Source of the DNA: Ruminococcus sp.
Lineage (GTDB): Bacteria > Bacillota > Clostridia > Oscillospirales > Acutalibacteraceae
Direction of reading: 5' to 3'
Length of the DNA stretch: 56,324 nt
Assembly: GCA_017384945.1 (NCBI GenBank)
Contig: JAFNSO010000025.1
Span: 1-56,324, forward strand
The translations under genes were made by a program, and so were the position numbers. How positions within the stretch are numbered: the first letter of the stretch is position 1; every line of letters begins with the position of its first letter. Below the pieces are notes generated by a model. That model was given only the letters and a program-made list of their open reading frames with translations. It was not told the DNA's origin and searched no databases. Shown one piece after another: positions 3,284 through 19,163 of the stretch.

Positions 3284-3304
3284 TTAGGTTAGTTTTGCCT
3301 AACT
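3284..3304. promoter_or_regulatory. DtxR-type iron box upstream of hydrogenase operon
   Basis: Contains GTTAG-N6-CTAAC (3288-3303) extended to TTAGG...CCTAA over 19 bp (3284-3302), close to the classical DtxR/IdeR palindrome. It shares its half-site and spacing with sites at the feo promoter (19147-19162) and the ABC transporter (15389-15404). It lies about 70 bp upstream of the better -35 and just upstream of the weaker second -10, so the mode of action, if any, is uncertain. Confidence 0.6.
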
Positions 3305-3309
3305 CTTGG

Positions 3310-3325
3310 GTTAGTGTTGTATAAC
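3310..3325. promoter_or_regulatory. Second, weaker DtxR-type half-matched box
   Basis: GTTAG-N6-ATAAC, one mismatch from the GTTAG-N6-CTAAC pattern, 6 bp from the stronger box. Tandem boxes are also present at the feo promoter, which makes a chance match less likely, but alone it would be weak evidence. Confidence 0.4.
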
Positions 3326-3350
3326 TTGCACAAACGGAGATTTCGGAAAA

Positions 3351-3375
3351 GAAAAACAGAGGCTTTCGCCTCTGC
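3351..3375 (-). terminator. Rho-independent terminator of the sensory-hydrogenase operon
   Basis: On the minus strand CAGAGGC-GAAA-GCCTCTG (3374-3357) is followed by TTTTTC. It abuts the stop codon of the PHP gene and separates that operon from the hydrogenase operon. Confidence 0.85.
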
Positions 3376-4085
3376 TAGCTGTCGAGATATTCAATCACCC
3401 TTTGAGCGGAAAGCTCGCAAAGCTCCATCACATTTTCGGGCTCGCGCATATTCTCAAGGTAATGCGCGTCGGAGTCGGTGATTATTTTCATACCGTTCAG
3501 AATGGGGTGAGCTTTTCTAAGCTCCTCTTCCCTGCTTTTGTCGGAAAGCTCAGCCGCGGTGAAGCCGCACGACGGATCGATCTCGCCGAGAACGGAAAGA
3601 ATCGAAAGACTGTCGCGGTCGATATGCGCGGGAAGGCACACTCCGCCGAAATCGCGCACAAGGCTGTGAGCGCTCATTACACTGATGTCGGTCGCGGGAA
3701 GCAGAAGGTGCTCGACTTCCCCCGTTTCCTCGTCGTTTTCGTTCATAATGACCTGTCTGCCGTAGATCTCGGGCTTGTTTTTGATTTTGATTCGGTGATT
3801 ATCCACGTACTCGTTCCATTTAAGAGCCTTTTCCAAATCGGGAAACAGGCACACAACGTGGATATCCTCGCTGGTGGTGAGCTCCATACCCGCCAAAACC
3901 AAAAGCCCGACCTCCTCGCCGACCTTCATCGCCGCCTCACAGTTGAGAGAGGAATTATGGTCGGTAAGCGCGATTATGTCAAAGCCCAGAAGCTTTGCCA
4001 TATTCACAATATTGTTCGGGGTCATATCCATATCTCCGCACGGAGACAGGCAGGAGTGCAAATGCAGGTCGTAAAAATACTTCAT
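3375..4085 (-). CDS. PHP-domain metal-dependent phosphoesterase
   Basis: A 236-residue protein of the PHP phosphoesterase family. The first metal-binding motif is DLHLHS at residues 6-11, followed by ALTDHNS near 40-46; further histidine and aspartate motifs occur as LPAHIDRDS and ITDSDAHY near the C-terminus. The family hydrolyses phosphate esters with two or three metal ions; the substrate is not known here. It is the last gene of the 6495-3375 operon with DRTGG proteins, an RsbW-like ATPase and a hydrogenase-like iron-sulfur protein, which suggests a signalling role. It begins 7 bp after the DRTGG gene upstream of it. Confidence 0.88.
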   Translation of the reverse strand: MKYFYDLHLHSCLSPCGDMDMTPNNIVNMAKLLGFDIIALTDHNSSLNCEAAMKVGEEVGLLVLAGMELTTSEDIHVVCLFPDLEKALKWNEYVDNHRIKIKNKPEIYGRQVIMNENDEETGEVEHLLLPATDISVMSAHSLVRDFGGVCLPAHIDRDSLSILSVLGEIDPSCGFTAAELSDKSREEELRKAHPILNGMKIITDSDAHYLENMREPENVMELCELSAQRVIEYLDS

Positions 4086-4092
4086 ATCAGCC

Positions 4093-4419
4093 TTAAATTA
4101 GCTCGTTTATCTTGATCGCGAGCTCAAAGCTGTTGTCGTCCGTCTGCAAAATGGTTACATCGTGAAGCTCGGCCTTTTGTCTTGCTTCCTCGTCAAGTGC
4201 GGCGTGCTCTACAAGGACGATACAGCTCACGTCGGCCAGTGTCGCGACAGCGATCGAGTTGATATTGCCCATAACGGTGAGCCACGCCGAGTCCTCGGGC
4301 GCTCTGCCCATTACCCAGCTGAGCAAGTCGCCGATGTAGCAGTCGATAACCTCACGGTCGAGGTCTCCTTCGGTCAGTATTGTGAGTTTAAGCCTTTCGG
4401 CAAGTTCCTTTACGGTCAT
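4093..4419 (-). CDS. DRTGG-domain protein (second copy)
   Basis: A 108-residue single-domain protein resembling the DRTGG fold found as a regulatory module in phosphotransacetylases and CBS/DHH pyrophosphatases. It begins MTVKELAERLKLTILTEGD and carries the DREVIDCYIGDLLSWVMG stretch. It is related to the first gene of the operon (6139-6495), with the same order of an N-terminal helix, the G-D-L-D motif and a short alpha/beta region. It probably binds a small ligand or partner protein; no catalytic residues are visible. It lies between the hydrogenase-like gene and the PHP gene. Confidence 0.8.
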   Translation of the reverse strand: MTVKELAERLKLTILTEGDLDREVIDCYIGDLLSWVMGRAPEDSAWLTVMGNINSIAVATLADVSCIVLVEHAALDEEARQKAELHDVTILQTDDNSFELAIKINELI

Positions 4420-4431
4420 GGTAAAATCCTC

Positions 4432-5706
4432 TTAAATAGTGTTTTTAAGCTGGTCGTATACGCTCTGTATCTTTTCCTTGAGCTTGAAGATACAGTCTGT
4501 CTCCTTTGCCCTGCCCTTTACGATATCCTCCGCCATAGCGCGGCAGGTGGGCGCTCCGCAGGAGCCGCAGTCGAGCCGCGGAAGTCCGCTGTAGATCTCC
4601 TCTATGCTCGACATCATCTCGAACGCCTTGTTTATATCCTTGTCAAGACGGAAGATGTCCGCGTCGTACTCGAGCTCCTTCTCCCACTTCATACGATTAA
4701 TGTCGCCCTCCTTTAGGTGATTGAGGGAAACGGGCAAATACTTCCTGAGATTCTGAATCCGAGCCTGAGCGACGTAGGCGTTTTCGACGGTGAGAACACC
4801 GCCGACGCAGCCGCCCGAGCAGGCGTTGAGCTCAACAAAATCGACGTCGCGGATGTGATCGTCCTCGAGCTCCTCAAGAACGTGGATGACGTTTTCGATT
4901 CCGTCGGCGGCGAGATATTTTTCGCCGAGCATTGCGGCGCTCTCGCCTCCCGAGTTAGCCCAGCCAATTCCGATAAGTCCCGACTGCGCTATCGGCTCGA
5001 CCTCGGTCAAGTGATCCATAGCCTGAGTAAGCTCGGGGTAAATCTGCGATATCGCGATCGCACCGTCGCAGGCTGATTTTTTGATGCTGTTCGGCGAGTG
5101 GATCTCCGTGACCTTGGCGGCGCATGGGGTTATAAAGAACACGCCGATGTCCTCGCTTTTGAGTCCCGTTTGCTCCACAGCCTCTCTGCGGGCGATTCTC
5201 GCCGCTACCTCAATCGGCGCGAGAAGGGGCATTACGTTGTCGCAAAGCTCGGGAAAACGGATTTTAATAAGCCTTACAACAGCGGGACACGCGGAGCTGA
5301 TGATCGGTTTTTTGAGCTTATTCTCCTTTATAAGCTTTCGGGTGGCCTCACTCACGAGCTCCGCGGCGCGGCTGACCTCAAAGATTCTGTCAAAGCCGAG
5401 CTTTTTTAGTCCTGTCAGTACGATATCGATGTTGTCGAGCCTGTTGAACTGACCGAACAGCGCGGGTGCGGGAATGGCAACCTTGAGCTTGAAATTATTA
5501 ATATCTGAAAGCGGTGAGCTGGACGCCTTTTTGGCGTGATGAGGACAAATGCGAATGCACTCTCCGCAGTCGATACACCTCTCTGGCAGGATATTCGCCT
5601 TGCCGTCGTGGACTCGTATCGCCTCCGTAGGACAGCGCTTTAAGCAGTTTGTACAGCCGCAGCACTTGTCAATATCCATCTCAACCGAATGGAAATACGT
5701 ATTCAT
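4432..5706 (-). CDS. [FeFe]-hydrogenase-like iron-sulfur protein, putative sensory type
   Basis: A 424-residue protein. Residues 15-54 form a two-cluster ferredoxin domain (CCGCTNCLKRC, CIDCGECIRIC). Residues about 75-330 match the H-cluster domain: SSACP (C140), TPCAAK (C195) and NACSGGC (C296, C300) supply the four cysteines that hold the H-cluster. The cysteine that relays protons in catalytic enzymes, first Cys of the canonical TSCCP, is alanine here (A139). The C-terminus has a further CGSCGAPTC...C [4Fe-4S] motif (C380, C383, C388, C405). The pattern resembles sensory hydrogenases rather than H2-producing ones. Its neighbours, an RsbW-like ATPase, DRTGG proteins and a PHP enzyme, support a hydrogen- or redox-sensing role; this is inference. 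Confidence 0.85.
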   Translation of the reverse strand: MNTYFHSVEMDIDKCCGCTNCLKRCPTEAIRVHDGKANILPERCIDCGECIRICPHHAKKASSSPLSDINNFKLKVAIPAPALFGQFNRLDNIDIVLTGLKKLGFDRIFEVSRAAELVSEATRKLIKENKLKKPIISSACPAVVRLIKIRFPELCDNVMPLLAPIEVAARIARREAVEQTGLKSEDIGVFFITPCAAKVTEIHSPNSIKKSACDGAIAISQIYPELTQAMDHLTEVEPIAQSGLIGIGWANSGGESAAMLGEKYLAADGIENVIHVLEELEDDHIRDVDFVELNACSGGCVGGVLTVENAYVAQARIQNLRKYLPVSLNHLKEGDINRMKWEKELEYDADIFRLDKDINKAFEMMSSIEEIYSGLPRLDCGSCGAPTCRAMAEDIVKGRAKETDCIFKLKEKIQSVYDQLKNTI

Positions 5707-5716
5707 AAAAAAGTTC

Positions 5717-6142
5717 CTACTTTACATTTACGGTTAAATAAAGATTGGTACCGACGCCGATTGTCGTCTCAATTCTCATTTCGTCGGTATATTTTTTAAT
5801 ATTCGGCAGACCCATACCAGCTCCGAAGCCGAGCGAGCGAACGTTATCGGGCGCGGTCGAATAGCCCTCCTGCATAGCCTTTTCCACATCGGGGATTCCG
5901 GGACCCTTGTCGGAGAGCAGAACCTCTACCCTGTCGGGGTAAATATCAACGTCGCAAAAACCGCCGTCGGCGTGGATAACCATGTTGATTTCAGCCTCAT
6001 ACATGGCAATCGCTACCCTGCGTATCGCGTCGGTGTTGTAGCCGAGGGATTTGAGGCGCTTTTTAACTGACCCGCTCGCCTCACCCGCGCGGGTGAAGTC
6101 GTCAGAGGGCACCTCGTAATGAAGATGCAAAGCGTTACTCAT
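5717..6142 (-). CDS. RsbW/anti-sigma-type ATP-binding protein
   Basis: A 141-residue GHKL ATPase of the anti-sigma regulatory factor (RsbT/RsbW) type. It has the N box EAEINMVIHA near residues 49-58, the G1 box SDKGPGIPD near 92-100 and the G2 box GFGAGMGLPNIKKY near 121-134. Family members phosphorylate an antagonist protein or sequester a sigma factor; no such partner is seen in the window. It overlaps the upstream DRTGG gene by 4 bp (ATGA) and is followed after 10 bp by the hydrogenase-like gene, so translation is probably coupled. Confidence 0.87.
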   Translation of the reverse strand: MSNALHLHYEVPSDDFTRAGEASGSVKKRLKSLGYNTDAIRRVAIAMYEAEINMVIHADGGFCDVDIYPDRVEVLLSDKGPGIPDVEKAMQEGYSTAPDNVRSLGFGAGMGLPNIKKYTDEMRIETTIGVGTNLYLTVNVK

Positions 6143-6495
6143 ACGGCAGTTCCTCCCGAAAGTCCGTTAGCGTAAAGCTTTCCGCAGGCGGTAAACATTC
6201 TGAATCGGGTTTTGATAAGAGTGATACCGCGGCTTCTGGCGAGGTTAATGATCGAGTCGTCGGGATCCTTGCCGCGTACAAAGACGATGCACGCCATATC
6301 CATCATCTCGGCTGTGCGAACAACCTGAGGATTGACAAGACCCGTAAGGAGCACGCTCTGGTCCTTAACAAACGCGAGCACGTCGCTCATCATATCGGAT
6401 CCGCAGGCGGTTTTGATTACGTGGTCGAGGTCGCCTTCGCAGATAATCTCGCCTTCGAGAATGTCTATTATATCCTTTACTACCATATTTATCAT
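6139..6495 (-). CDS. DRTGG-domain protein (first gene of sensory cluster)
   Basis: A 118-residue single-domain DRTGG-like protein starting MINMVVKDIIDILEGE, with ICEGDLDHVIKTACGSDMMSDVL as the core motif. It opens the operon that also encodes an RsbW-like ATPase, a hydrogenase-like protein, a second DRTGG protein and a PHP phosphoesterase. Function is unknown; ligand binding is suggested by the family. ATG 6495 follows AAAGGATG; a possible second start two codons later (ATG 6486) is less well spaced. Confidence 0.8.
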   Translation of the reverse strand: MINMVVKDIIDILEGEIICEGDLDHVIKTACGSDMMSDVLAFVKDQSVLLTGLVNPQVVRTAEMMDMACIVFVRGKDPDDSIINLARSRGITLIKTRFRMFTACGKLYANGLSGGTAV

Positions 6496-6691: not shown

Positions 6692-6775
6692 GCGAGCGTG
6701 CTGGAATAGGCAGACAGGCACGTTTGAGGGGCGTGTGTCTTTGACGTACGGGTTCAAGTCCCGTCGCTCGCACCA
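6692..6775 (+). tRNA. tRNA-Leu (anticodon GAG)
   Basis: An 84-nt class II tRNA. Acceptor arms GCGAGCG (6692-6698) and CGCTCGC (6765-6771) pair fully; the anticodon stem CACGT/GCGTG encloses loop TTGAGGG, giving anticodon GAG. There is a long variable arm, the T-arm ACGGG-TTCAAGT-CCCGT, and an encoded CCA. The last 23 bases are the left end of an integrated element, which regenerates an intact tRNA. Confidence 0.95.
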
Positions 6776-6776
6776 A
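6753..6776 (+). repeat. attL core (tRNA-Leu 3' end)
   Basis: A 24-bp stretch covering the T-loop to the CCA end of tRNA-Leu plus one A is repeated exactly at 11581-11604. The two copies bracket the integrase-bearing AT-rich segment, the usual outcome of integration into a tRNA 3' end. Confidence 0.9.
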
Positions 6777-6785
6777 CTCTTGACT

Positions 6786-6828
6786 CCGAAAGTTACGATT
6801 AAATGTAGCTTTCGGGGTTCTTTTTTTG
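6786..6828 (+). terminator. Terminator downstream of tRNA-Leu, supplied by the element
   Basis: CCGAAAGTTAC (6786-6796) pairs with GTAGCTTTCGG (6805-6815), 11 bp with one T-G wobble and an 8-nt loop, followed by GGTTC and seven Ts. It lies inside the element, replacing the original terminator now found beyond attR. Confidence 0.8.
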
Positions 6829-6840
6829 TGCCTGTCTGTT

Positions 6841-6863
6841 TTTTGCCGTTCAATTTTGCCGTT
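6841..6863 (+). repeat. Left pair of TTTTGCCGTT repeats (candidate integrase arm sites)
   Basis: TTTTGCCGTT occurs at 6841-6850 and 6854-6863, between attL and the integrase stop codon. The same pair recurs near the right end at 11454-11474 in the same orientation. Arm-type sites of tyrosine integrases are typically short direct repeats placed like this; the assignment is inference. Confidence 0.55.
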
Positions 6864-6865
6864 TT

Positions 6866-8086
6866 TTAGAATATACTCAACCGTTTTTTTAGAACACTCT
6901 CAACCGTAAACATTCCTTTTGCAGTAGCTTCCTGTACTTCGTGAGTATAAGTAACCAGCGTTGTGCGATTAGTAGTGTGTCCCATTGTACTTGATACAAC
7001 ATTAATCGGTTCTCCTGATGTAATACTAATAGTAGCATAAGCGTGGCGAAATGCGTGTAACCCTTTGAAATGTATGTGTTCACGCTTACATAACCGCTCT
7101 AAAAATGTATATGGTGTATTCGGGTTCATTGGCTCACCGTTCCATTGAATAAAAAGTCTATCGCTATTATTCCATAAATCACCACAGTTTAGCTCTTGCT
7201 CCTGTTGCTCTCTTTTTAATTGTTTAATCAATTCTAATACATCAGCCGAAAAAAATACACATCTGTAAGAAGATTTGTTTTTCGGGGTTGAAACATATAC
7301 CCCGGTATTTGAGTTTCTATAATTGCTTGTCCTTCTAATAGTTACTAAACCGCTGCTAAAATTAATATCCTTGTATTCAAGCCCCATTAATTCACCACGT
7401 CTTAAACCATAAAAAGCAAGAATACTAAACATAACACAGTATTGCAAGTTTGCTTGTTCGTAAATAGCGTTAAGAATTAGTGTAACTTCATCTGTACTAT
7501 AAACCTTCTTGTTTTTCTGTTCTTCTTCGCTCTCGCTTAGTTTGCTCACTTCAATGTTTTTACATACATCAAGCATACTTTTATCAGCTTTTTTCATTTT
7601 AACAGCATATTTCATAACATCGCTTATAAATGTAAGATAATGCTTTTGTGTTTTAGGCGAAAGTCCTTTACCGTTACGCTTATTTACACCATTACGGCTA
7701 AGATTATCAATAAACACTTGAATATCAGCGTCATTGATGTCATTAATATATTTTTCGCCAATAGCTTCATATGTACGATTCTTTAATATTTTCATACGTT
7801 CGATAGTGCTTATTTTGATTGTGTGTTTTGTTTCAGCACGTTGTAACCACTCATTAGCAATATCTTTAAATTTAACTCTATAATCGTATTGTTCATCAAG
7901 TAATTGTTTAACAGTTTCCTCAAACAATACCGCTTGTCTATTAGCCTCCTTCTCCGCTTGCCGTACTGTCATTTTTTTTTCGGGTTTATAGGTTTTAGAA
8001 GTTTCTCCACCCCTTAAACGCTTATCAAAAACTCGAATACGGTAAACAGTACCTTTTTTATTTTCTCTTTTTTCAACCTTTGCCAT
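6866..8086 (-). CDS. Tyrosine-type site-specific integrase
   Basis: A 406-residue phage-type tyrosine recombinase. The N-terminal part (to about 60) is an arm-binding region, then a core-binding SAM-like domain (about 75-185), then the catalytic domain with the first Arg in GLRRGELMGL near 237, the HxxR box in LHAFRHAYA near 348, and the H...Y end MGHTTNRTTLVTYTH near 373-387. It integrates or excises the element at tRNA-Leu. It is the gene next to attL, the usual position. ATG 8086 follows AAAGGAT. Codon use and composition are AT-rich like the rest of the element. Confidence 0.95.
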   Translation of the reverse strand: MAKVEKRENKKGTVYRIRVFDKRLRGGETSKTYKPEKKMTVRQAEKEANRQAVLFEETVKQLLDEQYDYRVKFKDIANEWLQRAETKHTIKISTIERMKILKNRTYEAIGEKYINDINDADIQVFIDNLSRNGVNKRNGKGLSPKTQKHYLTFISDVMKYAVKMKKADKSMLDVCKNIEVSKLSESEEEQKNKKVYSTDEVTLILNAIYEQANLQYCVMFSILAFYGLRRGELMGLEYKDINFSSGLVTIRRTSNYRNSNTGVYVSTPKNKSSYRCVFFSADVLELIKQLKREQQEQELNCGDLWNNSDRLFIQWNGEPMNPNTPYTFLERLCKREHIHFKGLHAFRHAYATISITSGEPINVVSSTMGHTTNRTTLVTYTHEVQEATAKGMFTVESVLKKRLSIF

Positions 8087-8116
8087 AAGTCATTATCCTT
8101 TCTTTAAATAATCGGC

Positions 8117-8344
8117 TTATGCAGGATTGATAGCGTCATTATTATAACACTCTTTTTTACCGAAAAGCAAGCTAAACAGAACATCTAAATTAATTAATCG
8201 CTTACTTTCTACTTCTACTATTGGTATCTCCCCTTTGTTTACCATACGTCTTAACGCTCTTATAGTAAAATCGGTTTCGGGGTCTGCCTTTTTTATTTCT
8301 TCATATGCTTTTGGAATTGTTCTCATTCTTGGAATATTATTCAT
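8117..8344 (-). CDS. Small putative DNA-binding protein, excisionase-like
   Basis: A 75-residue basic protein with a predicted winged-helix/HTH core around TIRALRRMVNKGEIPIVEVESKRLINLDVL, close to the HTH_17 excisionase pattern in which a Lys-Arg-Leu follows the wing. It sits 30 bp upstream of the integrase gene and is probably co-transcribed, which fits a recombination directionality factor. The C-terminal segment is not recognised. AAAGGTG precedes ATG 8344. A regulatory rather than excisionase role is equally possible. Confidence 0.65.
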   Translation of the reverse strand: MNNIPRMRTIPKAYEEIKKADPETDFTIRALRRMVNKGEIPIVEVESKRLINLDVLFSLLFGKKECYNNDAINPA

Positions 8345-8470
8345 TAAATCACCTTTCTTTAAATTATAATAAATCTGTTTTATTCTCTCGCAAGGTTAAG
8401 AGAAGTATAAACCTCTCTCAACCTCGCCCATATATGTAAAAGAGCTTTCGGCTCTGTAGCCGACAATTAA

Positions 8471-8701
8471 TTACTCGGATTCTGTTACCTTTGCCGGTTC
8501 AGAATTTTTGATAATCATATCTATAATACTTTGTTTAAAAATCAGTCTTTTAGCCCCGATTTTGGTTGTATCAAGTTTTCCTAATCGTATCATCTTTGCA
8601 ACTCCGCTTTTGCTCATTCTAAGAGCTTGTGCTACGTCCTTTACTGACATTAAATCTTCATATCCGTTAAGAATTTCTGTAGAAACATTTTTAGTTTTCA
8701 T
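8471..8701 (-). CDS. Excisionase-family HTH protein
   Basis: A 76-residue protein with a clear MerR-like/HTH_17 domain at residues 17-65: LMSVKDVAQALRMSKSGVAKMIRLGKLDTTKIGAKRLIF. It is the better of the two excisionase candidates in the element; its relative at 8117-8344 is more divergent. It could act as excisionase or as the repressor of the element. AAGGAG precedes ATG 8701 on the minus strand. The 126 bp between it and the next gene contains a short inverted repeat but nothing else recognised. Confidence 0.72.
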   Translation of the reverse strand: MKTKNVSTEILNGYEDLMSVKDVAQALRMSKSGVAKMIRLGKLDTTKIGAKRLIFKQSIIDMIIKNSEPAKVTESE

Positions 8702-8854
8702 AATAAATCAATCTCCTTTATGTTATTGTTTTTCTTTAATATACCGCTAATTTGCTCGTATTTGCCCCAGATTTAAAATTCTGTTTTTATGTGTCAATCT
8801 CCGTGTATTACAACAAAATAGCTTACACGTTGAATCACGGCTAATATGAGCGTT

Positions 8855-10021
8855 TTAATCTCCGCAGCGGTTTATATTCATATCTTTTTCAAATTGTTTG
8901 TGTTCGGCTTCATCATATTTTACTTTATTATCCATAAGATAAATAAAGTTTTTGTTTGATGTATCTGCCGGGCTGTCTTTTTCTCCAAGCAAACCACACC
9001 TATCTATAATATAGTAAACATTTTTCTGATTATAGAATTTTTCACAAATAAAACGCACTTCATTTAAAGAAACATCTTTATCCATAGCAATAATCACATC
9101 TACATTATCAAGATAATCTGTTAATATTCTTACTTGCTCGTCCGATATAAAGTGTCCTTGTAATGCAACTCCCGTAGAATCATTTAAAGAATCACGTTTT
9201 AAAACCGATTTCTCAGCTTCATAAACAACTACATATCCAGCTTTTCTTATACTCTGCTCGTTTTCCCATAAACCATATAGGTTATTTGATTTGTTATAAT
9301 ACTTAGTTATTATGTATTTTGGAATACCTAATTCTTCGCACATATTTATTGTTGTTCTACTCGAAATCGCTATAATATCACCGTTTTTATAATTCTTGAT
9401 TGGAATAATAATTCTTTTGTGCCTATAAGAATACCTTATATCAAATTTTTTTCTCGTCCACGGCATTATACCTTCTTTATACCAATCAAGAAATAGTATT
9501 TGTTCAGCTCCATTAAAAATCAGCATATCATTTGCTAACTCTTTCTGATATTTCTTTTCAAATTCTGCTTGTAGTTTTTCTTCGGATTCTTCATTAATAG
9601 AATTATCGTCCTCGTCATCAAAAATATTTGTATCTACATCTTTTAATATTTCTTCTTTTGTTTTATCTTTCAATCCTAAAATCTCGTGTAAATAGTCAAT
9701 CGCTTTGCTAAAACTAATCTTTAATGTACGTTGTACTAATGTTATTATATCGGGATTACGTCCCCAATTTCGTGTATAATTTGTTACGTTAATATATGGA
9801 TTTGTATAAACTACTATTGCTGTTGGATTATCACCGTCCCGATTTGAGCATTGATAATAGTTATCTTTATAAACATTATGTATTTGCTTAAATACAATAT
9901 CTTCACACCCTACACTATCAAGAATTAAAGGTATTAAGTCATTCTTTAAAATGTAACTCTTTAATTCCTTAGCTGATAGTCTTTTTCTATTTCTAATTGC
10001 ATATTGATATATAATAATCAC
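8855..10021 (-). CDS. TOPRIM primase-like replication protein of the element
   Basis: About 388 residues. The N-terminal part (about 30-110) resembles a DnaG-type zinc-binding region but with a degenerate CHC2 pattern (C...H...YYQCSNRDGDNP). An acidic linker follows (about 125-155), then a TOPRIM domain with the conserved Glu in VVYEAEKSVL near 275 and the DxD pair in IIAMDKD near 322. It probably primes replication of the element. Start is uncertain: the in-frame GTG 10021 lies within the AAGGAGTG ribosome-binding-like sequence, and codons at the right distance are ATT or ATA, so either a non-canonical start is used or the true start lies further in. Confidence 0.75.
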   Translation of the reverse strand: MIIIYQYAIRNRKRLSAKELKSYILKNDLIPLILDSVGCEDIVFKQIHNVYKDNYYQCSNRDGDNPTAIVVYTNPYINVTNYTRNWGRNPDIITLVQRTLKISFSKAIDYLHEILGLKDKTKEEILKDVDTNIFDDEDDNSINEESEEKLQAEFEKKYQKELANDMLIFNGAEQILFLDWYKEGIMPWTRKKFDIRYSYRHKRIIIPIKNYKNGDIIAISSRTTINMCEELGIPKYIITKYYNKSNNLYGLWENEQSIRKAGYVVVYEAEKSVLKRDSLNDSTGVALQGHFISDEQVRILTDYLDNVDVIIAMDKDVSLNEVRFICEKFYNQKNVYYIIDRCGLLGEKDSPADTSNKNFIYLMDNKVKYDEAEHKQFEKDMNINRCGD

Positions 10022-10047
10022 TCCTTCTTATGTTATTGATTATACGC

Positions 10048-10201
10048 ATTTGTAACCGCTAAAGCGGTAACAAATACGTTCTATACAGAGAAGAAAAATC
10101 TTTGTGTTGTTGGCTAATTTGATTGTACGAAATTCGTACTAACTATTTTTCCTCAAATACTAATACTTCTTTTTCTGTATAGAACACCGCTGTAAGCGGT
10201 G
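10048..10201. repeat. Nested inverted repeats between primase and 184-aa gene (possible origin)
   Basis: In about 150 bp there are four palindromes: ATTTGT-A-ACCGCT-aa-AGCGGT-A-ACAAAT (10048-10075), TCTGTATAGAAC arms at 10078-10089 and 10174-10185, GTACGAA-a-TTCGTAC (10125-10139) inside them, and CACCGCT-gta-AGCGGTG (10185-10201). ACCGCT/AGCGGT recurs in the first and last. Placed upstream of the primase gene, this could be the replication origin or a control region; no function is shown by the sequence itself. Confidence 0.55.
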
Positions 10202-10205
10202 GTAT

Positions 10206-10273
10206 AAAAAAGTGTACGTTTAAAATCCATATATAGTATTATTGTATTATGGAATTAGAACGTACACTTTTTT
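10206..10273 (-). terminator. Terminator-like inverted repeat after the 184-aa gene
   Basis: AAAAAAGTGTACGTT (10206-10220) and AACGTACACTTTTTT (10259-10273) are perfect 15-bp arms with a 38-nt AT-rich loop holding a further CCATA/TATGG pair. On either strand the stem ends in Ts, so it could terminate both ways; it overlaps the stop codon of the minus-strand gene. Confidence 0.6.
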
Positions 10274-10826: not shown

Positions 10827-10902
10827 AAATAGCAACCTCCATATAATAAAAAATGCGTACAACCGAAGTCATACGCAATAAAACATATAGCTCCGTATTG
10901 TC

Positions 10903-11474: not shown

Positions 11475-11477
11475 ATC

Positions 11478-11519: not shown

Positions 11520-11580
11520 AAAATCGCAAAATGTTAGATAAATACTGACTTTAACAGACTATGAAACATATTCAAATCTT

Positions 11581-11604: not shown

Positions 11605-11641
11605 AAGAACAGGACATCCAACGGATGTCCTGTTCTTTTGG
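11601..11641 (+). terminator. Original tRNA-Leu terminator, now separated by the element
   Basis: A perfect 19-bp inverted repeat: CCAAAAGAACAGGACATCC (11601-11619), loop AAC, and its complement at 11623-11641 ending TTCTTTTGG. It begins in the CCA of the attR tRNA remnant, so before integration it followed the tRNA directly. Confidence 0.75.
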
Positions 11642-12278: not shown

Positions 12279-14675
12279 TTATTCCGCGCCCTTGAGCGCT
12301 TCTACCATATCTATTTTTTTATTCTTCCTCGCTACCATTAATCCTACCAGTAAGGACACTCCGAAGGTCAGTACCACGGAAACAAGGTATGTCAGTACCC
12401 CGAGCATCAGCCTCATCTCGTATTCGCCCGCAAGCGCCGTTATAAGCCATTGAAGCACTCCGACTCCTGCGGGCAGTCCGATCGCAACGCCGATGAAGGT
12501 CAGCCAGATATTCTGCGAAATCAAAAGCCTTCCTATCGTTCTGTTTCTGAACCCGAGAACCTTCAGAGTCGCAAGCTCACGCGAACGCTCGACGTAGCTC
12601 ATTATTCCGAGATTATAGAGCACTACGATTCCGAGAACCGCGGCGGCGATAACGAGAATAATCACCATTCCGTCCATTATTTCTACAAAGCTGTTAAAGG
12701 ACTCCATAAGCTGAGCCTTGTCCTGCTTGCCCGAAATCAAATCATTGCTTTTTATTTCGGCGATTTTTTTGTCGGTATAAATCGAGCTTACGCTGTATTC
12801 TATCCCCAGCTTGTCCGCAAGCGTGTCGGTAATCGTGACGCTCTCGGTCATAACAGAGCGGTTATAGCCCAGCACCTTAGCGCTGTAGGTTTTCTTTGAG
12901 CCGTAGGGAGAGAACTTTATTTCGTCACCGGGCTTTGCCCTGTCGCTCAGACGCAGGCAAAGATATACGCCCTCGTTTTTTAGCTCGATTCTGTTATTGT
13001 CCTCGTCTATGACGTTAAAAAGCCCGCTCGGGTTGTGTACAATATCGAGGGTGACGGTATCGCCGTCTAGACTGATTCCCGCAAGGCTCTCCCAGTCGCC
13101 GCCGAGCTCACGGTACAACTCCTTCGACTTCTTCATATCAGCGTCATCAACGAGGTTTACCTTTGTCGTGTAATTGCTTATATCGTGGTCGAGCAAATTG
13201 AGAAAGCCCGCCATTGTGTCTCTCATTCCGAGACCGCCGACCATAAGCACCATACAGCCGACTATTCCGAATAAAGTCATAGCCGAACGGCTCTTGTGAC
13301 GGCTTAGATCGCGGATATTCCACTTTGTACCGAAACGCATTTTGTCCCAAAAGCGAAATCGTTCCAGGAAAATCTTTCGCATTTTCTTAGGAGAATACGG
13401 GCGCAGAGCGTCCGCAGCCGTTCCCTTTAGCTGCTGTCTGACCGACAGATAGCTTATTAAGGTCAGAAGAGCTATCGTCGCCGCCATAACGGGATAACAG
13501 AAAGCGGGAATCGCGACACCCCAGTCGGGCATATCAAAGTATGTACCCATCATACCGTCCTCGCTCATTATCGCCTTGCAAACCGCGTAGCCGAGAGCGA
13601 CTCCGAGAGCCGTTCCGACAACTCCTATAAACAGACCGTAGGATGTGTAGTGTCTGAGAATCCTGCGGTTTTTGAAGCCCAGAGCCTTCAATGTGCCGAT
13701 TTGCGTTTTCTCCTTGGTTGCTATGCGGTGCATAGTCGTAACCATTGTAAGAATAGCAATCGCCAGAAAGAGCACAGGCAGCACCGAGCCCATGGTCTTG
13801 CCCTCCTCGGCCTCGCCGTTCGCTTCCTTGCAGACGACGTGGTCATCCTTTGAGGTCACCATAATAGTTCTGCCGAGCTTTTTCTTTACGGCTTTTTCGA
13901 GGGATTTTTTACTCAAATCCGACAGAATATTGATTTGCGCGAACGCCTTTGTCTCAACTTCGCTCAGCATATCATCTGTAACAAACAGTCCCGTGAGGTT
14001 TTCGTCAATGAACTCCGCGGGAACACGGGATTTTTCAAGTTCCTTTTTAAAGTCGTTTTGAATTTTATCACGCAATACTGCCTTGAGCTTTTTCGGAGAG
14101 ATGTAAGCGTAACCGAAGGTGGAGTAGTCGGGCATCATCTGGTTTTTGTCGGCGACGCAAATCATATGCTCCCCCGCCTTTATCAGACCGACGATTTTTA
14201 CGCTTATCTCCGTTCCTTGAAACTCGAGGCTAAGGCTGTCGCCGATAGCGAGCTTGTTTTTCTCGGCGAACTTGTCGCTCAGCCAAAAGCCGTCCGAGCT
14301 TTCGTCATAAGCCGCGCCGTCGATTACGGTAAAGGTGCTGACCTTATAATTTTCACTCACATCCAGCGCGAGGCTTTTGTTTTTCTCGCCCTTTAAGTCA
14401 AGATTCACGGACAGGTATCTCGTCGCCGCCCTTACGCCCTTTATAGACGATATTTTCTTTATATCGTCGCTTGTGAAGCCCTTTTCGGAGTAAAGCCTGT
14501 AGTCGGCGTAGCTCGTTTGCTCAAAAAAGCTCCCCGTATCGACCTCAATCGTTTTCCACTCCATATTAAAGCCGAGGAACATTCCCATTCCGAGCGTTAT
14601 CATAATTATCATTGAGATAAACTGCGCCTTGTAGCTCCATGCGGTTCTAAGCAATTTACGCGTAAGCATTACCAC
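12279..14675 (-). CDS. FtsX/MacB-type ABC transporter permease
   Basis: 798 residues. An N-terminal membrane segment (about 17-37) is followed by a large extracytoplasmic MacB-like domain (about 40-290), three membrane segments of a first FtsX domain (about 295-420), a short cytoplasmic link, a further membrane segment near 465, a second extracytoplasmic domain and a C-terminal FtsX domain (about 675-790). The family exports or extracts lipids, peptides or drugs using mechanical coupling rather than a pore; the substrate cannot be told from sequence. It overlaps the ATPase gene by 7 bp. A DtxR-type box upstream of the ATPase suggests iron-dependent expression. Confidence 0.9.
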   Translation of the reverse strand: MVMLTRKLLRTAWSYKAQFISMIIMITLGMGMFLGFNMEWKTIEVDTGSFFEQTSYADYRLYSEKGFTSDDIKKISSIKGVRAATRYLSVNLDLKGEKNKSLALDVSENYKVSTFTVIDGAAYDESSDGFWLSDKFAEKNKLAIGDSLSLEFQGTEISVKIVGLIKAGEHMICVADKNQMMPDYSTFGYAYISPKKLKAVLRDKIQNDFKKELEKSRVPAEFIDENLTGLFVTDDMLSEVETKAFAQINILSDLSKKSLEKAVKKKLGRTIMVTSKDDHVVCKEANGEAEEGKTMGSVLPVLFLAIAILTMVTTMHRIATKEKTQIGTLKALGFKNRRILRHYTSYGLFIGVVGTALGVALGYAVCKAIMSEDGMMGTYFDMPDWGVAIPAFCYPVMAATIALLTLISYLSVRQQLKGTAADALRPYSPKKMRKIFLERFRFWDKMRFGTKWNIRDLSRHKSRSAMTLFGIVGCMVLMVGGLGMRDTMAGFLNLLDHDISNYTTKVNLVDDADMKKSKELYRELGGDWESLAGISLDGDTVTLDIVHNPSGLFNVIDEDNNRIELKNEGVYLCLRLSDRAKPGDEIKFSPYGSKKTYSAKVLGYNRSVMTESVTITDTLADKLGIEYSVSSIYTDKKIAEIKSNDLISGKQDKAQLMESFNSFVEIMDGMVIILVIAAAVLGIVVLYNLGIMSYVERSRELATLKVLGFRNRTIGRLLISQNIWLTFIGVAIGLPAGVGVLQWLITALAGEYEMRLMLGVLTYLVSVVLTFGVSLLVGLMVARKNKKIDMVEALKGAE

Positions 14676-15370
14676 TCCACCTCTTCGACGCCGAGCGGTC
14701 TGTCCTGATTTATGATCTCGCGGATTTTGCCGTTCTTTACGCGGATAACTGTGTCCGCCATTTTAGCTATACTCTGATTATGGGTTACAATCACAATCGT
14801 TTTTCCGTAATTTCTCGCCATTCCGAGAAGGAGCTTCAAGACTCTGACGCCCGTTTCCGAGTCGAGCGCGCCTGTCGGCTCGTCGCAAAGGAGAATCTTC
14901 GGATTCTTCGCGAGCGCTCTCGCAATCGAAATCCTCTGCTGCTCGCCGCCCGATAGCTCCGAGGGGAAATTGTGCAGATGGTCGCTCAGCCCTACCTCGG
15001 CTATCATCTGCTTTGCGTCGAGAGCGTCGGGAGCTATTTGCGAAACAAGCTCAACGTTCTCGTAAACGGTGAGGGTCGGAATAAGATTATAAAACTGAAA
15101 CACAAAGCCCACGGTCGCCGCGCGGTAATCGGCGAGCTCGTTGTCGGAAAGCGTGCTTATATCCCTGCCGTTCACGGTGATTGTGCCCTCTGTAGGGCTG
15201 TCGAGTCCGCCGAGCATATTCAGAAGCGTGCTTTTACCCGCGCCCGAGGGTCCGAGTATCACAACGAATTTTCCCTCGTCGAGATTAAAGCTGACGTCGT
15301 CGAGCGCTTTAAGCTCGTGCTCGCCGCTCTTGTATATTCTTGTTACGTTTTCAAATTTCACAATGGACAT
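14669..15370 (-). CDS. ABC transporter ATP-binding protein (MacB/LolD type)
   Basis: 233 residues with all ABC motifs: Walker A GPSGAGKST near 40-48, Q-loop FQFYNLIPTL, signature LSGGEQQR near 139, Walker B ILLCDEPTGALD near 160 and the H-loop VTHN near 195. It powers the FtsX-type permease encoded downstream with a 7-bp overlap. ATG 15370 follows GGGAGG. A perfect AGTTAG-N6-CTAACT box lies 17 bp before the start, so the pair probably belongs to the local iron regulon. The gene is separated from the feo operon by a terminator. Confidence 0.95.
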   Translation of the reverse strand: MSIVKFENVTRIYKSGEHELKALDDVSFNLDEGKFVVILGPSGAGKSTLLNMLGGLDSPTEGTITVNGRDISTLSDNELADYRAATVGFVFQFYNLIPTLTVYENVELVSQIAPDALDAKQMIAEVGLSDHLHNFPSELSGGEQQRISIARALAKNPKILLCDEPTGALDSETGVRVLKLLLGMARNYGKTIVIVTHNQSIAKMADTVIRVKNGKIREIINQDRPLGVEEVEW

Positions 15371-15387: not shown

Positions 15388-15405
15388 AGTTAGCTCAATC
15401 TAACT
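15388..15405. promoter_or_regulatory. DtxR-type box before the ABC transporter
   Basis: AGTTAG-CTCAAT-CTAACT: perfect 6-bp half-sites around a 6-bp spacer, the same pattern as at the feo promoter. It lies within the short leader/promoter interval between the feo terminator and the ATPase start. Confidence 0.7.
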
Positions 15406-15453: not shown

Positions 15454-15822
15454 TTACGAATACTTTTTAAGATGCTTCTTTATCGCGTTAAAGGTAGTAG
15501 AACTGATGACGTGCTCGATTTTGCAGGCGTCCTTCACGGCGTTTTCCTCGTCCACGCCGAGCCGCATAAACATCTCGCTGAGCACTGTGTGACGCTCGTA
15601 GGTGCGTTCGGCGACTTCTAAGCCCTCTTCAGTTAAAGAAATGCCGCCGTCACTGCCGACCTTGATGTAACCGCCGTCGCGCAAAATACCCATCGCCCGG
15701 CTGACGCTCGGTTTTGAGTAACCGAGCTCCGACGCGACGTCGATCGCCCGCACAAAACCCTTTTTCTGTCTGAGAACATAAATTGTTTCAAGATACATCT
15801 CGCCTGATTCCTTCAATACCAC
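15454..15822 (-). CDS. DtxR-family iron-dependent repressor (short form)
   Basis: 122 residues: a winged-helix domain (about 8-70, with recognition region ELGYSKPSVSRAMGIL) and a dimerisation/metal domain (about 70-120). Residues equivalent to the DtxR metal site are visible: M9, C100, E103 and H104 (CKIEH), plus H78. MntR-type proteins have Asp and Glu at the first two positions, so iron is favoured over manganese. The C-terminal SH3 domain of longer members is absent. As last gene of the feo operon it probably autoregulates through the GTTAG-N6-CTAAC boxes and controls the other genes bearing them. Confidence 0.9.
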   Translation of the reverse strand: MVLKESGEMYLETIYVLRQKKGFVRAIDVASELGYSKPSVSRAMGILRDGGYIKVGSDGGISLTEEGLEVAERTYERHTVLSEMFMRLGVDEENAVKDACKIEHVISSTTFNAIKKHLKKYS

Positions 15823-15921
15823 AGCGCTCGCCTCCGCATTGTTTTGGAAGCATTATATCATATTATCGCCCGATTGGCAAGGCGGAAGAAAACCGATTCT
15901 CCCGCCCTGTTAAAAGATTCA

Positions 15922-16101
15922 TTATTTTGGTTTATGGCATTTTCCCGACATAGCGCAGCTTTTGCAGCTCCCGCAGTTGCAGGACACGGATTTTCCCTGC
16001 ATTTTCTTTCGTACCATACTGAATATTACAGCGCCGACTATCAGGATAAGAACCGCGCAGATAATGATTGTACCGATATTATTTACGAGCCAATCAAGCA
16101 T
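15922..16101 (-). CDS. FeoB-associated cysteine-rich membrane protein
   Basis: A 59-residue protein too short for most gene finders. One membrane helix spans about residues 7-29; the C-terminus carries five cysteines in a CNCGSCKSCAMSGKC cluster, typical of the small Cys-rich partners of FeoB. It probably helps ferrous iron transfer or assembly of the Feo complex; details are unknown for the family. ATG 16101 lies 2 bp after the FeoB stop, so it is translationally linked, and dtxR follows after about 100 bp. Confidence 0.9.
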   Translation of the reverse strand: MLDWLVNNIGTIIICAVLILIVGAVIFSMVRKKMQGKSVSCNCGSCKSCAMSGKCHKPK

Positions 16102-16103
16102 TA

Positions 16104-18581
16104 TTACTTCACCTTAACCTTCTTTGTAAGCTTTGCGGCCTCCTTATACGGCTTGAACAGCATAAACAGCATTCCGGCTATGATAAGAACGGATACGATC
16201 AGACCGAAAACATTCAGGCTGCCCGTGAACGCGCCGCCGATTTGGTTGACGCAAAGAGCAATAGCATAGGCAAAGCCGCACTGATAGGCAATCGCGAAAG
16301 CAGTCCACTTGGCTGAGTTCATTTCCCTCTTGATTGCGCCCATAGCCGCGAAGCAGGGAGCGCAGAGCAAGTTGAACACGAGGAAGGAGAAGCCCGTAAC
16401 GCCTGTGAATACGCTCGCGAGCGTCGCCCAGACGGACATTTCTCCGCCGCCGTATAGCACGCCCATTGTGCCGACGATGTTTTCCTTCGCGATAAGACCC
16501 GTGATCGACGCAACAGCCGCCTGCCAGTTGCCCCAGCCGAGAGGAGAGAAAATCCAGCCGATAGCGTTGCCCACAGCGGCAAGCAGGCTCTTTGAGATTT
16601 CTTCCTCGCCGAGCATAGTAAATCCGCCGTCAACAAATCCAAAGCGGCTCAAGAACCAAAGCACGATTGTCGAAAGCAGGATGATCGTACCTGCCTTTTT
16701 GATAAACGACCAGCCGCGCTCCCACATAGAGCGGAGCACGTTGCCGAGCGTCGGCATATGGTAAGCGGGAAGCTCCATAACGAAGGGAGCAGGCTCACCC
16801 GAGAACATTCTTGTCTTTTTGAGCATAATACCCGAAATGATGATCGCGGCCATACCGATGAAGTAGGCTCCTGTGCTGACCCACGGCGAGCCGCCGAAGA
16901 TCGCGCCCGAAATCATAGCAATGAACGGAACCTTTGCTCCGCAGGGAATGAAGGTCGTCGTCATAATCGTCATACGCCGGTCTCGTTCATTCTCAATCGT
17001 TCGCGAAGCCATAATACCCGGGATTCCGCAGCCCGTACCGATCAGGATCGGGATGAAGGATTTACCCGAAAGACCGAAGCGGCGGAAAATCCTGTCGAGT
17101 ACAAAGGCGATACGCGCCATATATCCGCAAGCCTCAAGGAACGCGAGCAGCAGGAAGAGCACGAGCATCTGCGGTACAAAGCCGAGCACAGCGCCGACAC
17201 CGCCGATAATACCGTCGAGAATCAATCCCGACAGCCATTCGGGAGCGTTCGCGGCTTCGAGCCAGCCCTCAACGACAGCGGGAATACTCGGAACCCAGAT
17301 TCCGAACTCAGCGGGGTCATCAGCCCTGCCGCCGTACTTTTCAAAGACCTCGGCGGCTGACTTTACGTCCTCGCCCGAAACGGTCTCCTCGCTTATCTCA
17401 AGCGTTTCCTCGTCCTCTGCCTCGTATGTAAACTCGTCGCTGTCCTTTACGCTTGAAGAAAGCTTCTTAACCGCCTTGACAGCCGTATCTGAGTTGTATT
17501 CCTCGCTCTCAAAGTCGAGCGCCTCGGAAAGCTCCTTGTTGTCGGTACCATCCGCGACACCTGTGAGAACGCCGACCGCCTCAGAATACTCGTCGTACTC
17601 CGCGTCGCCTATTCCGACGAGGTGGAAGCCGTCGCCGAACAGTCCGTCGTTAGCCCAGTCGGTCGCGGACTGTCCTACGCTGACCATTGCGATGTAGTAC
17701 ACGAGGAACATAACGATTACAAAAATCGGAAGTCCGAGCCAGCGGTTGGTCACGACCTTGTCGATTTTGTCCGAGGTTGAAAGCTGACCCTTCTGCCTGT
17801 TCTTATAAACGCCGTCTATGATTTTTCCGATATAAACGTAACGCTCGTTCGTGATGATACTCTCCGCATCGTCATCGTACTCCTCTTCGACGGCTTTGAT
17901 ATCATTTTCAACGTGCTTTAATGTCGATTCACTTATGCCGAGTTTTTCAATAACCTTGTCATCGCGCTCAAAGATCTTGACCGCGTACCAACGCTGCTGC
18001 TCCTCGGGCATATCGTGGACGCAGGCTTCCTCGATATGAGCGATAGCGTGCTCGACAGAACCCTCAAAGGGGTGCTTCGGAACGGGCTTTTTCTCCTCAG
18101 CGGCTTTTACGGCGGCTTCGGCAGCCTCGGCTATTCCGTTTCCCTTCAGGGCTGAGATTCTTACAACGGTACAGCCCAAGGCTCGGGAAAGCTCTGCGGT
18201 GTTGATTTTTACGCCTGTCTTTTCGACAACGTCCATCATATTGATTGCGACAACTACGGGGATTCCGAGCTCGCACAGCTGCGTGGTGAGATACAGGTTT
18301 CTTTCAAGGTTGGTTCCGTCAACGATATTCAGTATCGCGTCGGGGCGCTCTTCAATCAGGTAGTTTCTCGCGACAACCTCTTCCATAGTATAAGGGGAAA
18401 GCGAATAGATACCGGGAAGGTCGGTGATTGTGACGTCGCTGTGCTTTTTCAGCTTTCCTTCCTTTTTCTCGACCGTAACGCCCGGCCAGTTGCCGACGAA
18501 CTGATTGGCTCCCGTCAGCGCGTTGAACAGGGTTGTTTTGCCGCTGTTCGGGTTGCCCGCAAGGGCAATCTTAATACTCAT
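16104..18581 (-). CDS. feoB: Ferrous iron transporter FeoB
   Basis: 825 residues. The N-terminal G protein has G1 GNPNSGKTTLFNALTG (8-23), G3 DLPGIYSLSPYT near 55, G4 NMMD near 115, then a helical regulatory domain (about 165-270). The membrane part starts near 287; the Gate motifs are seen around GFVPQMLVLF...CGYMARIAFVLDR and TGCGIPGIMASR. Between the first membrane helix and the next lies an unusual acidic insertion of about 130 residues (about 305-440), predicted to be outside the membrane, not normal for FeoB of about 700 residues. It moves Fe(II) into the cell. It follows two feoA genes, with its own upstream operator-like site. Confidence 0.96.
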   Translation of the reverse strand: MSIKIALAGNPNSGKTTLFNALTGANQFVGNWPGVTVEKKEGKLKKHSDVTITDLPGIYSLSPYTMEEVVARNYLIEERPDAILNIVDGTNLERNLYLTTQLCELGIPVVVAINMMDVVEKTGVKINTAELSRALGCTVVRISALKGNGIAEAAEAAVKAAEEKKPVPKHPFEGSVEHAIAHIEEACVHDMPEEQQRWYAVKIFERDDKVIEKLGISESTLKHVENDIKAVEEEYDDDAESIITNERYVYIGKIIDGVYKNRQKGQLSTSDKIDKVVTNRWLGLPIFVIVMFLVYYIAMVSVGQSATDWANDGLFGDGFHLVGIGDAEYDEYSEAVGVLTGVADGTDNKELSEALDFESEEYNSDTAVKAVKKLSSSVKDSDEFTYEAEDEETLEISEETVSGEDVKSAAEVFEKYGGRADDPAEFGIWVPSIPAVVEGWLEAANAPEWLSGLILDGIIGGVGAVLGFVPQMLVLFLLLAFLEACGYMARIAFVLDRIFRRFGLSGKSFIPILIGTGCGIPGIMASRTIENERDRRMTIMTTTFIPCGAKVPFIAMISGAIFGGSPWVSTGAYFIGMAAIIISGIMLKKTRMFSGEPAPFVMELPAYHMPTLGNVLRSMWERGWSFIKKAGTIILLSTIVLWFLSRFGFVDGGFTMLGEEEISKSLLAAVGNAIGWIFSPLGWGNWQAAVASITGLIAKENIVGTMGVLYGGGEMSVWATLASVFTGVTGFSFLVFNLLCAPCFAAMGAIKREMNSAKWTAFAIAYQCGFAYAIALCVNQIGGAFTGSLNVFGLIVSVLIIAGMLFMLFKPYKEAAKLTKKVKVK

Positions 18582-18605: not shown

Positions 18606-18625
18606 TAGTTAGCATTAGGTAACTA
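18606..18625. promoter_or_regulatory. DtxR-type box between feoA and feoB
   Basis: AGTTAG-CATTAG-GTAACT (18607-18624), one mismatch from the perfect pattern, 25 bp before the FeoB start. It may allow separate iron control of feoB. Confidence 0.55.
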
Positions 18626-18639
18626 AGCGGCGTAAAAAA

Positions 18640-18861
18640 TCACTCCACCTCAACCATCTCGGCGTCCGCCTTGCGGATCGAAAGCTGATAGCCGCGAACG
18701 GTGACCTCCATCGGATCGCCCAAGGGAGCGACCTTCTGCACCTTGATCTCAACGCCCTTGGTGATACCCATATCCATAATGCGGCGCTTTACCGCGCCCT
18801 CACCGCGGAGCTTTTTGACCTTGCAGGTACTGCCGACGGCAACCTCTCTGAGACTTTTCAT
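18640..18861 (-). CDS. feoA: FeoA family protein (second copy)
   Basis: 73 residues with the SH3-like FeoA fold: GSTCKVKKLRGEGAVKRRIMDMGITKGVEIKVQKVAPLGDPMEVTVRGYQLSIRKADAEMVEVE shows the family-typical RRIMDMG and GDPMEV regions. FeoA binds the cytosolic part of FeoB and modulates iron transport. It follows the first feoA after 13 bp and precedes feoB by about 58 bp, where a DtxR-type box is found. GGAGG precedes ATG 18861. Confidence 0.92.
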   Translation of the reverse strand: MKSLREVAVGSTCKVKKLRGEGAVKRRIMDMGITKGVEIKVQKVAPLGDPMEVTVRGYQLSIRKADAEMVEVE

Positions 18862-18874
18862 AAATTAACCTCCT

Positions 18875-19084
18875 TCAAATAAATATCTTCTGCGCCATTT
18901 CCCTGCTTACGGCAATACGCGCGTTTTTAACATTTACAATCAGGTTGCCTCCCATAGAGCTGACAACCGTAACCACAGCGCCCGACACAAAACCGAGGTT
19001 TTGCAGGTGCGCCCTAACGTCGGCGTTCCCGCCGATTCTTTTGATAATGTTTTCTTCGCCTATAGCGGCAAGAGTAAGCGGCAT
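18875..19084 (-). CDS. feoA: FeoA family protein (first copy)
   Basis: 69 residues of the FeoA SH3-like type (LTLAAIGEENIIKRIGGNADVRAHLQNLGFVSGAVVTVVSS), ending with the RIAVSREMAQKIFI strand typical of the family. It opens the feo operon. Its sequence differs clearly from the next copy; it lacks the GDP-x-E motif found in most FeoA, so the two paralogues may have split roles. AAAGGAG lies before ATG 19084, and the promoter with two DtxR-type boxes is directly upstream. Confidence 0.88.
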   Translation of the reverse strand: MPLTLAAIGEENIIKRIGGNADVRAHLQNLGFVSGAVVTVVSSMGGNLIVNVKNARIAVSREMAQKIFI

Positions 19085-19103
19085 AAAGATACTCCTTTTC
19101 CGA

Positions 19104-19129
19104 TGTCAATTAGCATATGCTAACTGACA
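19104..19129. promoter_or_regulatory. DtxR-type box in the feo leader
   Basis: TGTCA-A-TTAGCATATGCTAA-C-TGACA is a 26-bp near-perfect palindrome with a TTAG-N6-CTAA core. It lies between the transcription start and the first feoA. Confidence 0.65.
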
Positions 19130-19145
19130 TATAAAAAATAATAGC

Positions 19146-19163
19146 GGTTAGATTTCGCTAACT
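19146..19163. promoter_or_regulatory. DtxR-type box at the feo transcription start
   Basis: GTTAG-ATTTCG-CTAAC (19147-19162) begins 4 bp downstream of the feo -10 element and so covers the predicted start of transcription, an ideal repressor position. Confidence 0.75.

Follow-up and report, generated by a model that had tools for sequence, protein, structure and literature searches.

In the actinobacteria, sites of the iron regulator DtxR of Corynebacterium glutamicum that lie upstream of the -35 element are associated with activation, and those inside promoters with repression, according to the available part of the report (PMC1382209). The same rule of position and direction is given for IdeR in the available part of another report (PMC10317159), and the actinobacterial IdeR consensus as quoted there, TTAGGTTAGSCTAACCTAA, contains the core TTAG-N6-CTAA twice, in overlapping positions. 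Here we describe a 56,324-nucleotide stretch of DNA from a Ruminococcus sp. (GCA_017384945.1), which we call the window and which is the whole of contig C5 (JAFNSO010000025.1) of a 2.08-Mb draft genome that is 89% complete. The window carries six copies of the pattern GTTAG-N6-CTAAC (the iron box) at a hydrogenase operon, at genes of an ABC exporter and at the feo genes for ferrous iron uptake. These sites probably form an iron regulon of the DtxR family in which boxes occupy two kinds of position, and the iron-loaded regulator would repress iron uptake and activate the hydrogenase.

The six boxes were found where an earlier sequence-only reading of this DNA had placed them, with one site, given as 19110, refined to a one-mismatch 16-mer at 19109-19124 (core 19110-19123). 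As that reading had also said, every one is intergenic, which the gene positions bear out, and three are perfect. Perfect copies in the window thus number 3; the mean of 100 shuffles is 0.08, and not one shuffle reaches 3. With at most one mismatch there are 6 against 1.26, a count reached by 1 of the 100 shuffles. A loose motif with three mismatches showed no excess (128 against 181); therefore, the strict motif alone is meaningful. Genome-wide, there are six perfect copies and one copy of a reversed control pattern, and all six are intergenic by the mechanical longest-frame gene calls that we used outside the window. A genome scan for copies inside genes had been proposed as one of two tests that could overturn the earlier reading; the perfect sites do not lie in genes, and the reading stands on this point. 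Two of the three perfect copies outside the window precede a DUF3793 gene (C48), and one precedes a fused FeoA-FeoB gene (C88). The 12 further places with one mismatch include 3 in the window, 3 within called genes and 1 in a short, doubtful frame; among the others, one is at the promoter of a second DtxR-family gene (C13) and one at an MMPL transporter operon (C92). We do not count as a target the one-mismatch site that precedes a glutamate synthase gene (C31), 146 bp ahead of a perfect promoter. Across 80 family genomes, there are 285 copies of the pattern and 130 of the reversed control, the pattern being commoner in 53 genomes and rarer in 13; in 12 congeners picked for their regulators, the counts are 56 and 27, with the control commoner in two (G096 and G113).

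Two boxes stand upstream of the hydrogenase operon, which reads from 3092 to 1 on the reverse strand. The perfect box (3288-3303) starts 91 bp, and the second box, with one mismatch (3310-3325), 113 bp upstream of the -35 hexamer of a conserved promoter, TAGACA-17-TAAAAT (3184-3212, reverse strand). Both are behind a terminator-like site (3376-3355, reverse strand) of the preceding operon, which resembles a hydrogenase sensor operon; we ruled out that they are part of this operon (6495-3375), because they lie behind its 3' end and the terminator-like site. The genes of the hydrogenase operon, all on the reverse strand, encode a NuoE/HydC-like subunit (P0002, 2595-3092), a HATPase-domain protein (2044-2595), a thioredoxin-like ferredoxin (1670-2041; score just under the curated cut-off), and a NuoF/HydB-like subunit cut by the contig end (3-1655), so that the operon ends with the contig, before hydA. 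In the same operon of the relatives G095 and G124, the next gene encodes a group A6 NADH-dependent [FeFe] hydrogenase (888.5 and 895.2 bits; cut-off 765).

Relatives were retrieved via the first hydrogenase gene, and the best 80 of 258, mostly rumen or gut metagenome-assembled genomes labelled Ruminococcus, Clostridia or Clostridiales, are referred to as the named loci. A hydrogenase box with at most one mismatch lies within 330 bp in 38 of the 80 named loci (mean of 20 shuffles, 0.55), and a perfect box in 33 (0.05); both arms are kept and the six inner bases vary. L227 and L243, two records not titled as metagenome assemblies, lack a box. In the genus, 55 other genomes gave a hydrogenase match, and we read 41 of them (a set that overlaps the named loci); in 23 of the 41, the 300 bp before the start codon hold a box with no more than one mismatch; G104, whose box stands at -325, was counted as lacking one. 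Outside the genus, we read 60 loci, some of them distant paralogues; within 300 bp, three of these have a perfect box and one more has a box with one mismatch. Conservation throughout the family is thus weak, and we narrowed the claim to the genus and a few others: the link between the hydrogenase and the iron box is lineage-specific.

At feo, the boxes are on the promoter. The sequence-only reading had noted a box at a consensus promoter, and the perfect box at 19147-19162 does adjoin a perfect TTGACA-17-TATAAT (19195-19167, reverse strand), 4 bp past the -10 hexamer and thus in the position of a repressor site. The one-mismatch box at 19109-19124 is in the leader, and a third, also with one mismatch (18608-18623), stands just before feoB, where many of the other feoB loci that we read also have a box. 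Domain matches identify FeoA (18875-19084), a second FeoA (18640-18861) and FeoB (16104-18581), so that both domains of ferrous iron uptake are present in the window; a FeoB-associated Cys-rich membrane protein (15922-16101) follows, all on the reverse strand. We compared the 30 best feoB matches in the 80 family genomes, the window's own locus included; one has no reference motif, and upstream of feoB each of the 29 readable loci carries one or more boxes that deviate from the pattern by no more than one base. A box lies over 150 bp ahead of feoB in 27 loci; the best promoter in these begins with TTGAC or TTGAG, and in 26 of them a box starts 7-41 bp past the start of the -35 element (in the spacer, the -10 element or the start), the exception being at 53; a narrower repressor class of 28-36 bp would take 12 of the 27. 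In the genome of the window, this distance to the first box is 33 bp at feo and at the DUF3793 gene, 34 at the fused FeoAB gene and 31 at the second dtxR gene, where the box has one mismatch, and the box of the MMPL operon is likewise in repressor position at a clear promoter. A protein bound at such sites would cover the -10 element or the start, which suggests repression.

The DUF3793 gene (C48:4359-4982, L023), with its boxes in repressor position, probably encodes an iron-starvation protein. The same arrangement is repeated in three congeners, G084, G114 and G096 (L353, L360 and L378). The remaining box of the window (15389-15404, perfect) lies 19-34 bp before the start codon of an ABC ATPase gene, LolD/MacB-like (14669-15370), which is followed by an FtsX-type permease gene (12279-14675), both on the reverse strand; a promoter scan found no clear promoter near this box. 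In the congeners G132 and G113, a perfect box stands 32 or 33 bp past the -35 start of a TTGACA-17-TATAAT promoter before an ABC ATPase gene whose product is 88% identical to that of the window. Therefore, the ABC link is conserved, in repressor position, and the exporter was rightly included in the box set. Genes for HMA-domain P-type metal ATPases (L364 and L366, in G109 and G124) also have a perfect box, 32 bp past the -35 start.

The distances at the hydrogenase are of another kind. With or without a box, 80 of the 80 named loci contain a promoter that matches TAGACA-17-TATAAT with a score of 9 or more out of 12.5. We measured from box start to -35 start, over 0-140 bp upstream, in 65 loci; because this set holds the same species fetched twice, the loci were grouped into 37 sequence clusters. 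L180, whose perfect box stands before a promoter below threshold (nearest candidate at 57), and L148, with a box 222 bp upstream of the -35 element and so beyond the limit, were left out. The distance is 78-80 bp in 22 clusters and 90-93 in 10, with 59, 67, 74, 101 and 113 once each, and no locus among the 65 has a distance of 81-89 or 94-100. These classes hold at clustering thresholds that give 14 to 44 clusters, over which the Rayleigh values for a 10.5-bp period range from 0.004 to 2e-9. The spacing between promoter and start codon is more variable (standard deviation 25, compared with 9 from box to promoter), and the 80-bp and 91-bp groups include pairs of spacers no more similar than shuffled sequence. 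A match to pyruvate:ferredoxin oxidoreductase (PFOR) was found in 54 of 60 genomes, and 30 PFOR loci were read; in the congeners G084, G114 and G136, a perfect box precedes a TTTAC(A/T)-17 PFOR promoter by 90, 80 and 80 bp, and the hydrogenase boxes of these genomes are at 91, 78 and 78. The dual layout of the IdeR type, with repressor sites on promoters and other sites upstream of the -35 element, is thus seen here, as geometry only.

By analogy with DtxR of C. glutamicum and with IdeR, an iron-loaded regulator should repress uptake and activate the hydrogenase. When iron is plentiful, the regulator loaded with Fe(II) would bind GTTAG-N6-CTAAC as a dimer. At feo, at the DUF3793 gene, at the second FeoAB gene and at the second dtxR gene, where the site covers the -10 element or the predicted transcription start, it would shut off uptake. 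At the hydrogenase, where the centre of the site lies some 86-140 bp ahead of the predicted transcription start and at set distances from the conserved promoter, the bound regulator would help RNA polymerase, and the NADH-dependent (bifurcating-type) [FeFe] hydrogenase would be switched on. When iron is short, uptake would be released and hydrogenase synthesis would drop. The earlier prediction that iron supply controls both uptake and the hydrogenase, which named no direction of control, keeps its single set of sites; its sites are not alike, those at feo having the geometry of a repressor and those at the hydrogenase that of an activator.

The hydrogenase box might instead be a repressor site, at which iron-loaded DtxR blocks a second, upstream promoter or forms a loop. 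The box does fit between promoter-like hexamers in the relatives L132 and L134, and in the genome of the window, the boxes at feo, DUF3793, FeoAB, the second dtxR gene and MMPL, which have a clear promoter, are all in repressor position. However, promoter-like elements around the box are not a conserved feature of the 29 upstream regions read; what is conserved is the spacing from the box to the downstream promoter. It would also be odd to produce an iron-rich enzyme only under iron starvation; we consider this explanation rather unlikely. Another explanation is anti-silencing, in which the bound regulator displaces a nucleoid protein from AT-rich upstream DNA and does not touch RNA polymerase. 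It would suit the AT-rich stretch between box and promoter, and the available part of PMC10317159 offers a precedent in IdeR and Lsr2 at bfrB, but the clustered promoter distances point to a contact that depends on geometry, and we regard it as unlikely.

The reading that we prefer is activation by a DtxR-family protein. P0001, encoded in the window, and P0003 (C13) are the only proteins in this genome that exceed the Fe_dep_repress cut-off. Both are above the curated cut-offs for Fe_dep_repress and Fe_dep_repr_C (45.6 and 53.2 bits for P0001; 41.9 and 56.4 bits for P0003). The gene for P0001, a DtxR/MntR-family protein of 122 amino acids with a Met/Cys metal site (15454-15822, reverse strand), follows feoB and the FeoB-associated gene; no box accompanies its promoter-like site (15852-15880, reverse strand). 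At the MntR positions that we take to be metal ligands in MntR and DtxR, P0001 has Met, Glu, His, Cys, Glu and His. Its Met, Cys, Glu and His at positions 8, 99, 102 and 103, which the sequence-only reading had recognized as a metal site, fit the iron-type site of DtxR/IdeR. P0003 (L022:3347-3748) has Asp at position 8, so that the Met of the iron-type site is absent, keeps the Cys, and ends in a Cys-rich tail. Neither protein reaches the cut-off of the NCBIfam model TransRegDtxRActin (44.1 and 39.8 bits; cut-off 290), and, ending at 122 and 133 amino acids, they do not have the C-terminal SH3-like domain. The 59 aligned regulators comprise 45 with Met, 11 with Asp and 3 with Asn at position 8 (the Met, Asp and Asn types), and all 59 have the Cys. 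The Asn-type proteins are from G128, G082 and G088.

In seven congeners that have a hydrogenase box (73-100% complete), the Asp/Cys type is the only DtxR found. G084, the nearest congener by hydrogenase sequence (98%; among the 60 searched) and 100% complete, shows the Asp type only and has boxes at feo, DUF3793, hydrogenase and PFOR; therefore, the local P0001 gene is not required for the hydrogenase box in relatives. By type of regulator, the hydrogenase box is present in 7 of 7 Asp-type genomes whose upstream DNA could be read and in 16 of 31 Met-type genomes (Fisher p 0.03, uncorrected for kinship). Three genomes without a box were left out of this count: G086 (Asp type, 178 readable bases) and G085 and G105 (no DtxR detected). 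The association with the Asp type is suggestive only. In the genome of the window, either paralogue, or both, may read the hydrogenase site, with P0003 a better candidate than P0001. Thus, the DtxR family proposed by the sequence-only reading remains the likely one, but the local protein at 15454-15822 is not necessarily the one that reads the hydrogenase boxes, as the seven boxed congeners show the second type only.

The signal might also be manganese or another metal, with the boxes as an MntR-type regulon. Both paralogues are like MntR in length and score best against MntR models, below the curated cut-offs, and their best PDB matches are MntR chains. The MntR equivalog cut-offs are not reached (best scores 85.9 and 90.2; cut-off 153), and Cys, present in both at position 99, replaces Glu99 in 59 of 59 aligned regulators, as Met replaces Asp8 in 45 of 59. 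Since the targets are Feo genes and an Fe-S enzyme, and no manganese transporter was seen among the scanned box-adjacent genes, a manganese regulon is quite improbable.

Several observations weigh against iron-dependent activation of the hydrogenase by a DtxR-family protein. Genome-wide, the 14-base core TTAG-N6-CTAA alone is not over-represented (13 copies, and 46 of the reversed control); together with the two congeners in which the reversed control is the commoner pattern, this would favor chance matches or sites of an unrelated regulator, but the location and conservation of the boxes, and the one-mismatch box at the second dtxR gene's own promoter, make such an origin very improbable. The 18 of 41 congeners without a hydrogenase box (3 of them with fewer than 410 readable bases upstream) keep the same promoter, so that the box is not essential. 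A period of 11-12 bp fits the distances better than one of 10.5, and we therefore claim spacing classes and not an exact helical repeat. Spacers of the same length resemble one another in part (mean identity 0.40-0.68, compared with about 0.3 for shuffled sequence), and shared ancestry therefore accounts for part of the clustering. The box distances also differ from the classical class I positions of CRP. No PFOR box was found in the other 27 of the 30 PFOR loci read, including that of the genome of the window, and the PFOR promoter is tied or not first in G114 and G136 under a plain sigma-70 consensus scan; a TTTACA template ranks it first in G084, G114 and G136 and in nearly all other PFOR loci. 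Finally, we set Fur aside as the iron regulator because the gene of the sole Fur-family match in this genome precedes a ZnuA-family gene; since that protein is below the NCBIfam cut-offs of all models that it touches (the best being PerR) and the genome is 89% complete, it may still have a Fur.

A Rex-like operator with one mismatch to the consensus lies between box and promoter at the hydrogenase (3241-3258). Rex-like sites with at most one mismatch are present in 10 of the 80 named loci, at varied positions (0.4 in shuffles), and the genome has a match to a Rex-type protein. Iron and NADH control may thus meet at the hydrogenase promoter. A perfect Rex-type pattern also occurs at 28904-28921, inside the frame 27289-29328. 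The neighboring operon (3375-6495) encodes a hydrogenase-like protein with an FeS domain, two DRTGG proteins, a HATPase and a PHP protein, and looks like a hydrogenase-derived sensor set. Farther on, a tRNA-Leu gene, a phage-type integrase gene (6866-8086), and HTH_17 and primase-like genes occupy 6692-11925, and they may represent an integrated element that separates the hydrogenase genes from the ABC genes.

We put forward a wider proposal tentatively, as possible rather than probable: the DtxR proteins without SH3 domains of rumen and gut Clostridia would be iron-dependent, distance-phased activators of the fermentative metabolism of ferredoxin and hydrogen, at hydrogenase and in some species at PFOR, acting through the operator that represses uptake, with the Asp/Cys variant with the Cys tail as the main reader where present. 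If these readings are true, hydrogen formation in the rumen and gut is tied directly to iron supply via a DtxR-type switch and not via Fur, and the iron dependence of ruminal hydrogen output becomes testable. A small two-domain DtxR would both activate and repress from one operator, the direction of control at a target would be predictable from site position alone, and a role in iron starvation would be suggested for a DUF3793 family. Dual control by DtxR/IdeR is known in actinobacteria; its use for a hydrogenase here looks unreported. In open-access titles and abstracts, we found no report of DtxR with hydrogenase, feoB or PFOR in Clostridia or Ruminococcus; the subscription literature is mostly outside this scope.

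The present system resembles actinobacterial IdeR/DtxR in the Fe-site ligands at the primary site, in the TTAG..CTAA letters of the operator, and in having repressor sites on the promoter and activator sites upstream of the -35 element, as far as the available parts of the reports describe them (PMC1382209, PMC10317159). It differs in its regulators, which have 122-133 amino acids and no SH3 domain, in its operator, a 16-mer, and in the targets supposed to be activated, namely hydrogenase and PFOR, not ferritin; activation itself is our inference. Bacillus subtilis MntR is alike in overall length and domain make-up and is among the best PDB matches, but Asp8 is replaced by Met in P0001 and Glu99 by Cys in both paralogues. 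Clostridial Rex acts on the same kind of operon, at which a Rex-like site is found here too; unlike the regulator proposed here, it senses NADH/NAD and not iron, according to the part of PMC8457756 that was available. In Clostridioides difficile, low iron lowers hydrogenase transcripts and raises FeoAB proteins, although the regulator studied in the available part of that report is Fur and not DtxR (PMC6311696). In Corynebacterium diphtheriae, the [NiFe] hydrogenase genes dip0672-0675 are raised by iron when DtxR is working; this enzyme is of another type and phylum, and the available part of the report ties no direct DtxR site to these genes (PMC13001254). Because hydrogenase responds in this way in both C. 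difficile and C. diphtheriae, the direction proposed here, with hydrogenase rising with iron, is plausible.

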